This document shows positions 2,255-4,714 of a DNA stretch of 8,350 nt, one piece after another. The notes below the pieces were generated by a model. The model saw only the letters and a list, made by a program, of their open reading frames with translations, searched no databases and was not told the DNA's origin. Within the stretch, counting starts at the first letter, position 1, and each line of letters begins with the position of its first letter. The translations under genes were made by a program, and so were the position numbers. The stretch is from NCBI GenBank assembly GCA_030633015.1, contig DAOVTR010000055.1:1-8350 (forward strand). Reading direction: 5' to 3'. This DNA comes from Bdellovibrionales bacterium. Its GTDB lineage: Bacteria; Bdellovibrionota; Bacteriovoracia; Bacteriovoracales; Bacteriovoracaceae.

Positions 2255-3085
2255 GTGAATTATGATTCCAAACCCAATATTTATTCTCTAGAAAATCTTA
2301 TTAAAAAACATTTTGGTATATCTATTCCTAAAGAAAAAATTGATATAGTAAAAGAAAAAATATCCCCATTTCTTTCTAAATATAAATGCAAAAATTATAC
2401 CGAGCTTTTTTTAAAGATTGATTCAAGCAATAATGATGACATCCTACTCGATATTGCAAACGCAATTACAACAAACTATACATATTTCAATAGAGAAGAA
2501 CCTCATTTTGATTATTTATCCAACAATGTTTATCCATCCTTAATCAGAGATCTTAAAAGAAAAAATGATTTAGATCTACGCATTTGGTGTGCAGCCTGTT
2601 CTACTGGTGAAGAAGCTTACACTCTATCAATGAACTTACGAGATTTTTTAAAATCAGATTATAATGAATGGAAGGCGGGTATTCTTGCCACTGATATTTC
2701 AACTCGAGCACTTTCAGATGCACAGCGTGGATATTACTCTAAGGAACAACTTCTTTATCTTAGCCAAAGCAGGATAAACAAGTATTTCATTAAAATAGAT
2801 GATCAAAATTATAAAATTAAAGAAGATATCAAATCTGATATACTTTTTAAACAATTCAACTTGAGATCAGAAGTTTATCCATTTACAAAACTATTTCATA
2901 TTGTTTTTTGTCGTAATGTAATGATATATTTTGATGAAGAAATTATAAACTATGTTGTAAATAAAATAGCAGATAATTTAACGCCCCAAGGTTATCTTTT
3001 TGTAAGTAATTCAGAGTCGCTTGGAAGAAAAAATAAAAGATTTAATTATATTGCACCAGGAATATATAGGAAAAAAATATTATGA
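2255..3085 (+). CDS. cheR: Chemotaxis receptor methyltransferase CheR
   Basis: CheR transfers methyl groups from S-adenosylmethionine to glutamates of chemoreceptors, which resets kinase activity during adaptation. The 276 residues match the usual length and have both family domains: an N-terminal helical part (about 1-85) and a Rossmann-type methyltransferase. Visible motifs are TTNYTYFNRE (residues 68-77), the SAM-binding stretch IWCAACSTGEEAY (usual form W-S-A-G-C-S-T-G-E-E), ATDISTRAL, FCRNVMIYFD and a final SNSESL. The start is GTG: an in-frame TAA lies just upstream (2249-2251) and no methionine codon follows within the N-terminal domain. I see no good Shine-Dalgarno site, so translation is probably coupled to cheA, whose stop lies 25 bases upstream. 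The stop overlaps the start of cheB (ATGA). Confidence 0.95.
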   Translation: MNYDSKPNIYSLENLIKKHFGISIPKEKIDIVKEKISPFLSKYKCKNYTELFLKIDSSNNDDILLDIANAITTNYTYFNREEPHFDYLSNNVYPSLIRDLKRKNDLDLRIWCAACSTGEEAYTLSMNLRDFLKSDYNEWKAGILATDISTRALSDAQRGYYSKEQLLYLSQSRINKYFIKIDDQNYKIKEDIKSDILFKQFNLRSEVYPFTKLFHIVFCRNVMIYFDEEIINYVVNKIADNLTPQGYLFVSNSESLGRKNKRFNYIAPGIYRKKIL

Positions 3086-4128
3086 CAGATGAAAAAATTA
3101 AAGTATTAGTTGTAGACGACTCTGCTGTTGTACGACATATACTTGAAAAAGGAATCAATCAACACCCTGATTTAATAGTAGTTGGAACCGCTGTTGATCC
3201 ATTTGATGCTCGAGATAAAATACTTTCTTTAAGGCCTGATGTTGTTACCCTTGATATTGAAATGCCTAAAATGACCGGCGTTGATTTTTTAGCACAACTA
3301 CTCCCACAATATCCTATTCCTGTTATCATGGTAAGCTCTCTAACCAAGAGAGGTAGTAATATTACAATGAAATCACTGGAAATAGGTGCCGTAGATTTTA
3401 TTAGTAAACCAAAAGGAGATGTTCAAGGTGGTCTTGCATCCGTTATGGAAGAATTATGTGAAAAAATAAAAATCGCAGCGGTAATTGATATTGAAAAATT
3501 AATGTTGAGTAGAAAAAGGGAATCAAAGGTTATAACTAAAACTTCTATCCTTGATAAGACAAAAATTATTGCAATGGGTGTCTCTACTGGTGGACTCGAA
3601 ACAATGAAATATATTCTCAGTAATCTTCCACATAATATGCCTGGAATTGTTTTAACTCAGCACATGCCTGCAGGATATACAAAAAGTTATGCTGAGACAC
3701 TTAATGACTTCACAGACTTATATGTTGTTGAAGCAAAAAATGGTGACAAAATTCTTCCTGGAAAAGTTCTCGTTGCTCAAGGTGGACTACAGATGACCGT
3801 TGCGGGAAGTCCAGGAAATTATTATGTTAACTGCTTGAAAGGCGAAAAAGTAAATGGGCACTGTCCATCAGTGGATGCACTTTTTAATTCAGTGGCCACT
3901 CATGTCGGAAGAAATGCAATTGGTGTAATTTTGACAGGCATGGGAAAAGACGGAGCAGAGGGGTTACTTAAGATGAAAAATAAAGGATCTTTTACAATAG
4001 CCCAAAGCGAATCAACATGTATTGTTTTTGGAATGCCTAGAGTAGCAATTGATATCGGTGCCCAAAGTGACATTCGTGACCTAGAACAAATTCCCACTGC
4101 TTTAATGAAAAAACTATCAATATCTTAA
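3082..4128 (+). CDS. cheB: Chemotaxis response regulator / protein-glutamate methylesterase CheB
   Basis: CheB removes receptor methyl groups and deamidates receptor glutamines, and is switched on by phosphate from CheA. The 348-residue protein has an N-terminal receiver domain with acidic Asp12-Asp13, phosphoacceptor Asp58 (VVTLDIEMPKMTG), Ser85-Ser86 and Lys109 (FISKPKG). A short linker leads to the methylesterase domain from about residue 160. The catalytic triad is visible as Ser168 (GVSTGG), His194 (TQHMPAG) and Asp290 (TGMGKDGAEG). The family stretch CPSVDALFNSVA is also present. ATG overlaps the cheR stop (ATGA), with AGGAAA at 3068-3073 eight bases upstream, so both coupling and an independent ribosome site are likely. 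All catalytic residues are intact. No terminator is evident right after the stop; the RNA-like element follows. Confidence 0.96.
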   Translation: MTDEKIKVLVVDDSAVVRHILEKGINQHPDLIVVGTAVDPFDARDKILSLRPDVVTLDIEMPKMTGVDFLAQLLPQYPIPVIMVSSLTKRGSNITMKSLEIGAVDFISKPKGDVQGGLASVMEELCEKIKIAAVIDIEKLMLSRKRESKVITKTSILDKTKIIAMGVSTGGLETMKYILSNLPHNMPGIVLTQHMPAGYTKSYAETLNDFTDLYVVEAKNGDKILPGKVLVAQGGLQMTVAGSPGNYYVNCLKGEKVNGHCPSVDALFNSVATHVGRNAIGVILTGMGKDGAEGLLKMKNKGSFTIAQSESTCIVFGMPRVAIDIGAQSDIRDLEQIPTALMKKLSIS

Positions 4129-4131
4129 AAT
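4102..4131 (+). promoter_or_regulatory. Possible promoter for the 4138 RNA element
   Basis: TAAAAT at 4126-4131 is one mismatch from the -10 consensus. An 18-base spacer separates it from TTAATG (4102-4107), a poor -35 matching three of six bases. Transcription would start seven bases after the -10, at 4138, which is exactly the first base of the closing stem of the RNA candidate. The match is tempting, but AT-rich DNA gives such hits by chance. Confidence 0.3.
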
Positions 4132-4137
4132 AAGCTA

Positions 4138-4237
4138 GTGCCATTATGCTCACCTCTTTATGTGCGATAGGACCGGGGCCAATTAAGCCGGATTACTATA
4201 TGTAATTCTAGCTGGTTAAGTGTTTTATTTCTGGCAC
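4138..4237 (+). ncRNA. Candidate structured RNA or 5' leader element, class unknown
   Basis: The 100 bases are closed by a perfect 6-bp stem, GTGCCA (4138-4143) with TGGCAC (4232-4237). Inside is an 11-bp hairpin: 4186-4191 (AGCCGG) pairs with 4212-4217 (CTGGTT), and 4192-4196 (ATTAC) pairs with 4202-4206 (GTAAT) around a five-base loop. A five-base bulge (4207-4211) lies on the 3' side. A G/C-rich run at 4170-4180 is free for further or alternative pairing: 4171-4174 could pair with 4214-4217, and 4175-4178 with 4153-4156. The block has 43 G+C per 100, against 16 of 93 in the bases that follow, a common signature of structured RNA in AT-rich genomes. I could not match it to c-di-GMP, SAM, TPP, cobalamin, glycine, fluoride, ZTP or guanidine riboswitches. 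It could be a cis leader of the 4331 gene or a free small RNA. A 19-codon ORF (4146-4205) is the main alternative. Confidence 0.45.
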
Positions 4238-4263
4238 AGTAATTGAATATTTATATGGAAAAT

Positions 4264-4287
4264 AAACTTAAAACGGATTTTAAGTTT
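4264..4287 (+). promoter_or_regulatory. AT-rich hairpin or palindromic operator upstream of the 4331 gene
   Basis: AAACTTAAAA (4264-4273) and TTTTAAGTTT (4278-4287) form a perfect 10-bp stem around a CGGA loop, 26 bases after the RNA candidate. Only two pairs are G-C, and just one further T follows before AAT, so it would be a weak terminator. It may instead be a protein-binding palindrome or a switching hairpin of the leader. Confidence 0.4.
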
Positions 4288-4330
4288 TAATTACTAGGAT
4301 TGTAATTAATAACTATTAAAGGATTTAAAT

Positions 4331-4669
4331 ATGAAAACATTTCATTTACTCGTTTTAGCAGCGTTTCTAATTTTTGCAGCAAGCTCTTATGCTCGCCTTC
4401 CGCAGCCAGATGATACCATATTGGCGCCTGTTGTTTTTTTAAATCAACAAGCAAATTTAGTAGCAATTGAAACTATTGATGGCGAAATATTCAAAGTTGA
4501 AGATATTCTAACCAAAGACTTAATATCTGCCATACAAAATGATCTGGCAATTGAGCTTTCAAGCGGTATTATCCTCTACTCCGAAGAAATTGACTTTCTT
4601 CTTTTTGAAAATATAAAGAAAAGAGTAGAACAATACAAAAAAGTTGCCCGAATTCCTCATGAATTTTAA
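4331..4669 (+). CDS. Small exported protein of unknown function
   Basis: I do not recognise this family. The 112-residue product has a clear Sec-type signal peptide: Lys2, a hydrophobic core from about 5 to 17, and a likely cleavage after Ala21 (SSYA|RLP). This leaves a mature protein of about 91 residues. The mature part begins with a proline-containing segment (RLPQPDD), has a short beta-like stretch (APVVFLNQQANLVAIET), and ends in a charged helical tail. There is no cysteine after the signal, so it is not a lipoprotein. AAAGGAT at 4318-4324 is a reasonable ribosome site seven bases before the ATG. It lies 202 bases after cheB, downstream of the RNA candidate, and is closed by its own terminator, so it is probably a single-gene transcript. 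It most likely acts in the periplasm. Confidence 0.85.
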   Translation: MKTFHLLVLAAFLIFAASSYARLPQPDDTILAPVVFLNQQANLVAIETIDGEIFKVEDILTKDLISAIQNDLAIELSSGIILYSEEIDFLLFENIKKRVEQYKKVARIPHEF

Positions 4670-4673
4670 TTAT

Positions 4674-4714
4674 AAAAAAGGGCAGTTTTAACTGCCCTTT
4701 TTTTATTTTTTTTT
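4674..4714 (+). terminator. Intrinsic terminator after the 4331 gene
   Basis: GGGCAGT (4680-4686) and ACTGCCC (4691-4697) form a perfect GC-rich stem with loop TTTA. The stem can extend through the A-tract at 4674-4679 and the T-run at 4698-4704. Seven Ts, one A and nine more Ts follow. It begins five bases after the stop codon and separates the small exported protein from the FecR-domain gene. Confidence 0.93.

Follow-up and report, generated by a model that had tools for sequence, protein, structure and literature searches.

Which part, if any, of the sequence between cheB and the small gene that follows it in a Bdellovibrionales bacterium acts as RNA? The stretch analysed, 8,350 nucleotides long and here called the window, carries the gene order cheA-cheR-cheB, a 112-aa exported protein, a FecR-like protein (so named through a homolog) and more genes, cheB being the last gene of cheA-cheR-cheB. 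A sequence-only reading had proposed that a G+C-rich block at 4138-4237 is a new structured RNA, possibly a leader of the small gene. The question is framed by four features:

3082..4128, plus strand: cheB, response regulator plus methylesterase (Pfam PF00072 and PF01339).
4129..4230, no strand assigned: spacer or upstream region, which holds most of the G+C-rich block.
4331..4669, plus strand: small exported protein of 112 aa, of an undescribed family present in 29 of 129 related genomes.
4674..4703, plus strand: intrinsic terminator downstream of the small gene, with 13 pairs and a T tail.

The same gene order was found in one relative only, Bdellovibrionales bacterium RIFOXYD12_FULL_39_22 (locus L001, genome G001), with CheB 68%, the FecR-like protein 44% and the small protein 27% identical to those of the window. 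When the two intergenic regions are aligned, common to both are TTCTGGCAYARYAATTGAA and portions of what follows downstream, and the shared 16/19 match was equalled in 9 of 1000 shuffle pairs. By eye, the small gene is absent after cheB in the six other loci read among cheB-based relatives (L146-L151, cheB 45-61% identical), stands upstream in none of the 29 other loci read among FecR-based relatives (L001's own locus being L089), and does not adjoin cheB in 14 ortholog loci read with their neighbourhood (L246-L259).

The small protein belongs to no Pfam or NCBIfam family above cut-off. A two-sequence profile of it gave hits in 31 of 129 class-level genomes, two of which were dropped as non-members. 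Three of the 32 profile hits were removed, namely L272 and L275 (partial, a different protein, and without the promoter-like element described below) and L276, a second copy in genome G058 with the same element and protein as L249; the remaining 29 ortholog loci, in 29 genomes, together with the window make up the set of 30 leaders used throughout. The product of 4331-4669 and its 29 orthologs have a family core of about E-T/L-x-x-G-E ... I-E-L-x-x-G-x-I-x-Y-P-E-E-V/I, and members often end in APHxDD-like tails. In many genomes the gene lies near one for a channel-like membrane protein (names by eye).

The composition of the G+C-rich block is as first described: a recount gives 43 G+C in 4138-4237 versus 16 in 4238-4330, in a window of 30% G+C overall where 43 is reached by 1.9% of 100-nt windows (step 10). 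Its pairings also lie where they had been put, GTGCCA (4138-4143) and TGGCAC (4232-4237) being exact complements whose 6-bp closing stem is present in the predicted minimum-energy fold, and the arms of a bulged hairpin falling at 4186-4196 and 4202-4217. The proposal that the block is a structured RNA did not hold up. Its fold of -24.8 kcal/mol compares with -21.8 +/- 3.2 after shuffling (z -0.93), and 40 of 200 shuffles were equally stable; a slightly wider interval, 4130-4245, gives z -0.69, and a 6-bp stem with at least four G-C pairs arises in 11% of shuffled blocks. In L001, whose contig has 38% G+C, the 100-nt stretch that ends at the promoter element common to both contains 41 G+C, and about the same stretch folds with z -0.01. 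The best 19-mer shared by the block and L001 matches at 11/19, which is chance level, shuffles mostly giving 11-12. No Rfam covariance model matched the block above gathering score. With 87-130 nt of upstream sequence per locus, a complement of TGGCAY occurs upstream in one of 28 loci, which is the window itself; the relatives vary and the closing-stem pairings are lost, an outcome that the sequence-only reading had itself named as speaking against the block.

Candidate copies of the block in other genomes were rejected as short, mostly AT-rich matches: blastn over 129 genomes, with six candidates scored per genome, gave 15 short matches at E <=0.01, one of them wholly within the block (28 nt, E 0.002). 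Nothing was found in plasmids, and phages gave three weak matches (47 nt, E 0.05). A sigma28 promoter at 4144-4170 was likewise set aside, its -35 misfitting by eye. The 7-mer CGATAGG at 4165-4171 of the window recurs upstream of two flagellin genes (L186, L196). It is similar to the -10 of the FliA motif, reported for Bdellovibrio as CCGATA in PMC3627812; a -35 was not found by eye.

A structured RNA special to the organism's close kin, either leader or sRNA, would account for the unusual G+C step and the perfect closing stem, and its transcript could start at the -10-like CGATAGG; with a fold no better than shuffles, no Rfam match, no counterpart in syntenic L001, the stem in a single locus of 28, one of 15 short blastn matches wholly inside it and no -35 seen by eye, we consider it very improbable. 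The block could also be the end of the cheA-cheR-cheB transcript, with the 4186-4217 hairpin and a T-rich stretch serving as a weak terminator. It does sit between cheB and the new promoter-like element, and TGTTTTATTT comes after the hairpin, but the terminator scan gave no call there; this explanation, which is compatible with the CsrA-leader explanation given below so that both can hold, appears possible but rather doubtful. Our best reading is that for the most part the block goes untranscribed, as upstream sequence, or belongs to the 3' sequence of cheB, and no conserved structure was found in it; the spacer 4129..4230 may contain sites for activators or a weak 3' end of cheB, both putative. 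The block is ordinary sequence and its striking arm is a promoter half-site, TGGCAC at the 3' side of the closing stem being the -24 half of a promoter-like element:

4231..4247, plus strand: sigma54-type -24/-12-like promoter element, CTGGCAC-N5-TTGAA, with a counterpart in 29 of 29 ortholog loci.
4258, plus strand: predicted start of transcription, 19 bp past the motif centre.

A -24/-12-like element stands before the small gene in all 30 loci, recognised by pattern in 28 and by eye in L262 and L263. Its -24 half, TGGCAY (4232-4237 in the window), lies 5 nt before the -12 half and is kept in 29 of the 30, L262 having TGGCCT, and the -12 pentamer is TTGTA in 19, TTGAA in six, TTGGA in two, ATGTA in one and GC-bearing in two. 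The GC at -13/-12 that marks sigma54 promoters is replaced by GA in the window. Six of the 17 pattern matches in G001 fall outside frames of at least 80 aa, four with TTGCT, one with TTGCA and one, at the small-gene locus, with TTGAA; all five other TTGAA/TTGAT matches fall within reading frames. Because the intergenic matches of that genome are otherwise TTGCT or TTGCA, GA at -12 is to be read as a deviation. In each of eight genomes the -24/-12 pattern occurs far more often than its reversed control (27 versus 3 in G136, for example), and RpoN was found in all four related genomes searched.

The TTGTA form has a precedent in Escherichia coli, where pspA (TTGGCAC-N5-TTGTA) and pspG (TTGGCAT-N5-TTGTA) are listed as sigma54 promoters marked experimentally confirmed in PMC4591121, which also supplies the rule, 19 bp after the motif centre, by which the start was placed. 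The 19 leaders with TTGTA at -12 resemble these two promoters as they are listed there; the window itself has TTGAA. Given GA rather than GC at -12 together with the pspA/pspG precedent, we term the element sigma54-type, its membership of the class being unproven. The psp genes differ in another respect, since pspA and pspG are reportedly PspF promoters and a PspF-like activator is without evidence here.

TTGGCAY-N5-TTGTA is overrepresented in the 129 genomes, with 297 matches versus 63 for a control pattern. In a sample made of the first match of each of 30 genomes (one of them, L303, being ortholog locus L254 again), 23 of 30 loci lie outside reading frames of at least 100 aa. A 6-bp GGA hairpin is present in three of these 23, which ties the hairpins described next to the small gene and not to the promoter class. 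At L279, L281, L282, L285, L286, L290 and L298-L302 the element stands 27-44 nt ahead of a gene, and the beginnings of the encoded proteins often resemble, by eye, those of exported proteins or lipoproteins; a psp-like sigma54 regulon of such genes in Bdellovibrionota is possible.

Between the predicted start and the small gene lies a leader of 73 nt, 4258-4330, consisting of two tandem GGA-loop hairpins and then a GGA in the Shine-Dalgarno sequence:

4264..4287, plus strand: hairpin 1, with a stem of 10 bp and the loop CGGA (GGA at 4275-4277); folded in the window, its position and its pairing conserved, with compensatory changes.
4288..4308, plus strand: hairpin 2, with a stem of 7 bp and the loop TAGGATT (GGA at 4297-4299); folds in the window and in L001.
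4318..4323, plus strand: Shine-Dalgarno AAAGGA, third GGA at 4321-4323; identified by sequence, unpaired probability 0.85-0.95.

The predicted start would thus fall six nt before hairpin 1. The loop GGAs at 4275 and 4297 have an unpaired probability of 0.99, and the spacing is 22 nt from loop 1 to loop 2 and a further 24 nt to the Shine-Dalgarno GGA, AAAGGA ending 7 nt before the ATG; this placement of a GGA in the Shine-Dalgarno was established in the window. L001 likewise folds into two tandem hairpins with GGA loops followed by a Shine-Dalgarno with GGA. By eye, two complete pair swaps and a single G-U change set its stem 1 apart from that of the window, and the core of stem 2 is identical; a two-sequence alignment of window and L001 was discarded, as it misaligned hairpin 2. 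Shuffling yields two-hairpin leaders in 37 of 5000 cases from the window leader and in 5 of 5000 from that of L001, and among 9770 90-nt windows from the window and related loci eight contain two GGA hairpins, four of the eight being the small-gene locus (window, L001 and two further records of the same place). The earlier idea of a cis-regulatory leader before the signal-peptide gene survives in part: a conserved leader exists, and hairpins are indeed present between block and gene, within 4258-4330, but the place and the pairings were wrong, the block lying upstream of the promoter-like element.

It is in 4258-4330 that compensatory changes preserve the base pairs of the RNA. In each leader we took, blind to pairing, the first GGA lying 18 nt or more beyond the element; its distance from the element is 21-31 nt in all 30 leaders and 24-31 nt in 29. 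Over six loop geometries, 5.53 of the 6 positions flanking this GGA pair, versus 4.12 when the 3' sides are re-dealt among leaders (highest of 2000 re-deals, 4.63), and 20 leaders pair at 6/6. In a fixed geometry, with GGA-anchored 17-mers forming 27 distinct rows, 80.9% of cells are paired versus 51.3% after shuffling; the covariation score of the anchored stem is 0.675 versus 0.192 (0/500 shuffles), slid controls reaching at most 0.335, and 50 cells are changed on both sides versus 18.6 (0/500). Further pair types number 20 versus 15.3 (8/500). The count of pairs with a double change, 6 versus 5.3 (224/500), is uninformative, being no higher than shuffled because all columns vary. Unanchored MAFFT alignment with RNAalifold gave no consensus pair for the leaders, probably because their loop lengths differ and MAFFT does not register them; the stem counts above are those of the GGA-anchored set.

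Perfect GGA hairpins of at least 6 bp occur in the first 65 nt of 23 of 30 leaders, versus 1.5 expected; six leaders have none of 5 bp and seven none of 6 bp, and imperfect versions are seen by eye. The start codons of L254, L255 and L268 were placed 3 nt off, but they lie beyond the 65-nt segments used for hairpin 1. Loop-capable GGAs average 2.13 per leader versus 0.39, and 24 of 30 leaders have two or more; L258 has its first GGA in the stem and the next in the loop. When ten loop trinucleotides were tried, GGA came top (21 of 28 leaders), followed by the overlapping AGG (18) and then GAA (10). These counts bear on the possibility that the tandem hairpins are conserved for some end other than CsrA, whether to stabilise the 5' end, to bind a GGA-recognising protein of a different kind or to make the ribosome-binding site subject to regulation. 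Their place at the transcript's predicted 5' end would equally suit a stabilising stem-loop; the stems, however, vary widely while the loop GGA is kept as the top trinucleotide, and a stabiliser needs no GGA, all of which makes such a function unlikely in our judgement.

In our best reading, a sigma54-type promoter drives a tandem-GGA leader that is repressed by CsrA, an arrangement we regard as likely, with CsrA binding and the transcription start inferred. Transcription would start near 4258 from the promoter at 4231-4247, and the leader would then display GGA in two hairpin loops as well as in the Shine-Dalgarno; a CsrA dimer holding the loop sites could bridge to the ribosome-binding site and block translation, and FliW, whose gene adjoins csrA in a relative, may lift this repression. 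According to PMC7652899, the CsrA/RsmA binding site is a GGA in a hairpin loop (ANGGAN in RsmE structures), and a second site at the Shine-Dalgarno allows one CsrA dimer to block translation. Judged from sequence, the loops of the window leader are probably docking sites for CsrA. The 10 bp of hairpin 1 exceed most SELEX CsrA ligands, which mostly have four or fewer pairs in the same source.

Genes for the proteins that this model calls for were looked for in relatives. In G001, csrA and then fliW follow flgK and a flagellin-like (FlgL-type) gene. CsrA matches were found in 33 of 39 related genomes searched, 32 of them over cut-off, including all eight ortholog-bearing genomes among the 39. 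The closest solved structure by CsrA sequence is 5dmb, aligned over residues 2-74, which we take to be the complex of CsrA with FliW.

The nearest known counterpart is the flaA leader of Campylobacter jejuni, where, according to PMC4894983, two adjacent GGA stem-loops lie 21 nt apart and FliW antagonises CsrA. The window leader resembles it, as described there, in having adjacent GGA stem-loops close to the start codon (spacing 22 nt against 21), a structure kept by compensatory changes, and both CsrA and FliW encoded in relative G001. Unlike flaA, whose second loop GGA covers the ribosome-binding site according to that account, the window has its Shine-Dalgarno GGA as a third, separate site; flaA is a FliA-dependent flagellin gene, whereas the window has what looks like a sigma54-type promoter, and its small gene encodes an uncharacterised exported protein; and CsrA binding is shown for flaA but predicted for the window leader. 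The glgC leader of E. coli, another CsrA target described in PMC7652899, concerns a different gene and regulatory context, and FliW is reported there to be absent from Gammaproteobacteria. Regulatory RNA from the same broad bacterial group includes, according to PMC3627812, a massively expressed ncRNA with a c-di-GMP riboswitch in Bdellovibrio bacteriovorus; in the window, by contrast, Rfam riboswitch models give no match. At permissive thresholds, Rfam returned chance or terminator-like matches only, with none over gathering score, for the window and 11 ortholog loci. The leader is of a known type, and 4258-4330 itself is outside every Rfam family.

From five related genomes, 30 of 36 flagellin matches were examined; two of these loci had no start, which leaves 28 leaders. 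At least two GGA-loop hairpins are present within 110 nt before the ATG in four of the 28 (L175, L176, L178, L198), and 16 lack any GGA-loop hairpin of at least 5 bp. By their sequence these four are possible further CsrA targets, and as such they support the CsrA reading without proving it. In L175, L176 and L178 the GGA-loop hairpins include one around the Shine-Dalgarno. Three other flagellin leaders, L188, L190 and L195, have by eye a different G-rich segment in common about 80 nt before the ATG, around GCAGTA-GC..TTG and then AGTTCCA; it has no Rfam match up to E 1 and is possibly another structured leader.

By analogy, the leader might even be a dedicated CsrA platform, a stress-induced psp-like transcript that titrates CsrA and so couples stress to a CsrA-FliW flagellar checkpoint in Bdellovibrionota. 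This would involve a TTGTA-form promoter, an envelope stress inducer and up to three or four GGA sites per transcript, and titration of CsrA is reported for the C. jejuni flaA leader; we hold it to be a speculative and quite improbable extension of the CsrA reading.

Among the papers listed by searches of the open literature, none studied CsrA in Bdellovibrio under CsrA, RsmA or FliW and none gave a CsrA target in Bdellovibrionota, and the word 'CsrA' is absent from PMC3627812. Against this background the leader offers a predicted CsrA target that is open to testing and backed by phylogenetic evidence, in a group with predatory bacteria among its members. A plausible false lead has been corrected on the way, the supposed RNA stem being a promoter half-site, and the findings suggest that sigma54-like promoters carrying TTGTA at -12 form a set. 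They also define an exported-protein family, carried by 29 of the 129 related genomes, whose regulatory leader stays the same although its gene neighbours differ.
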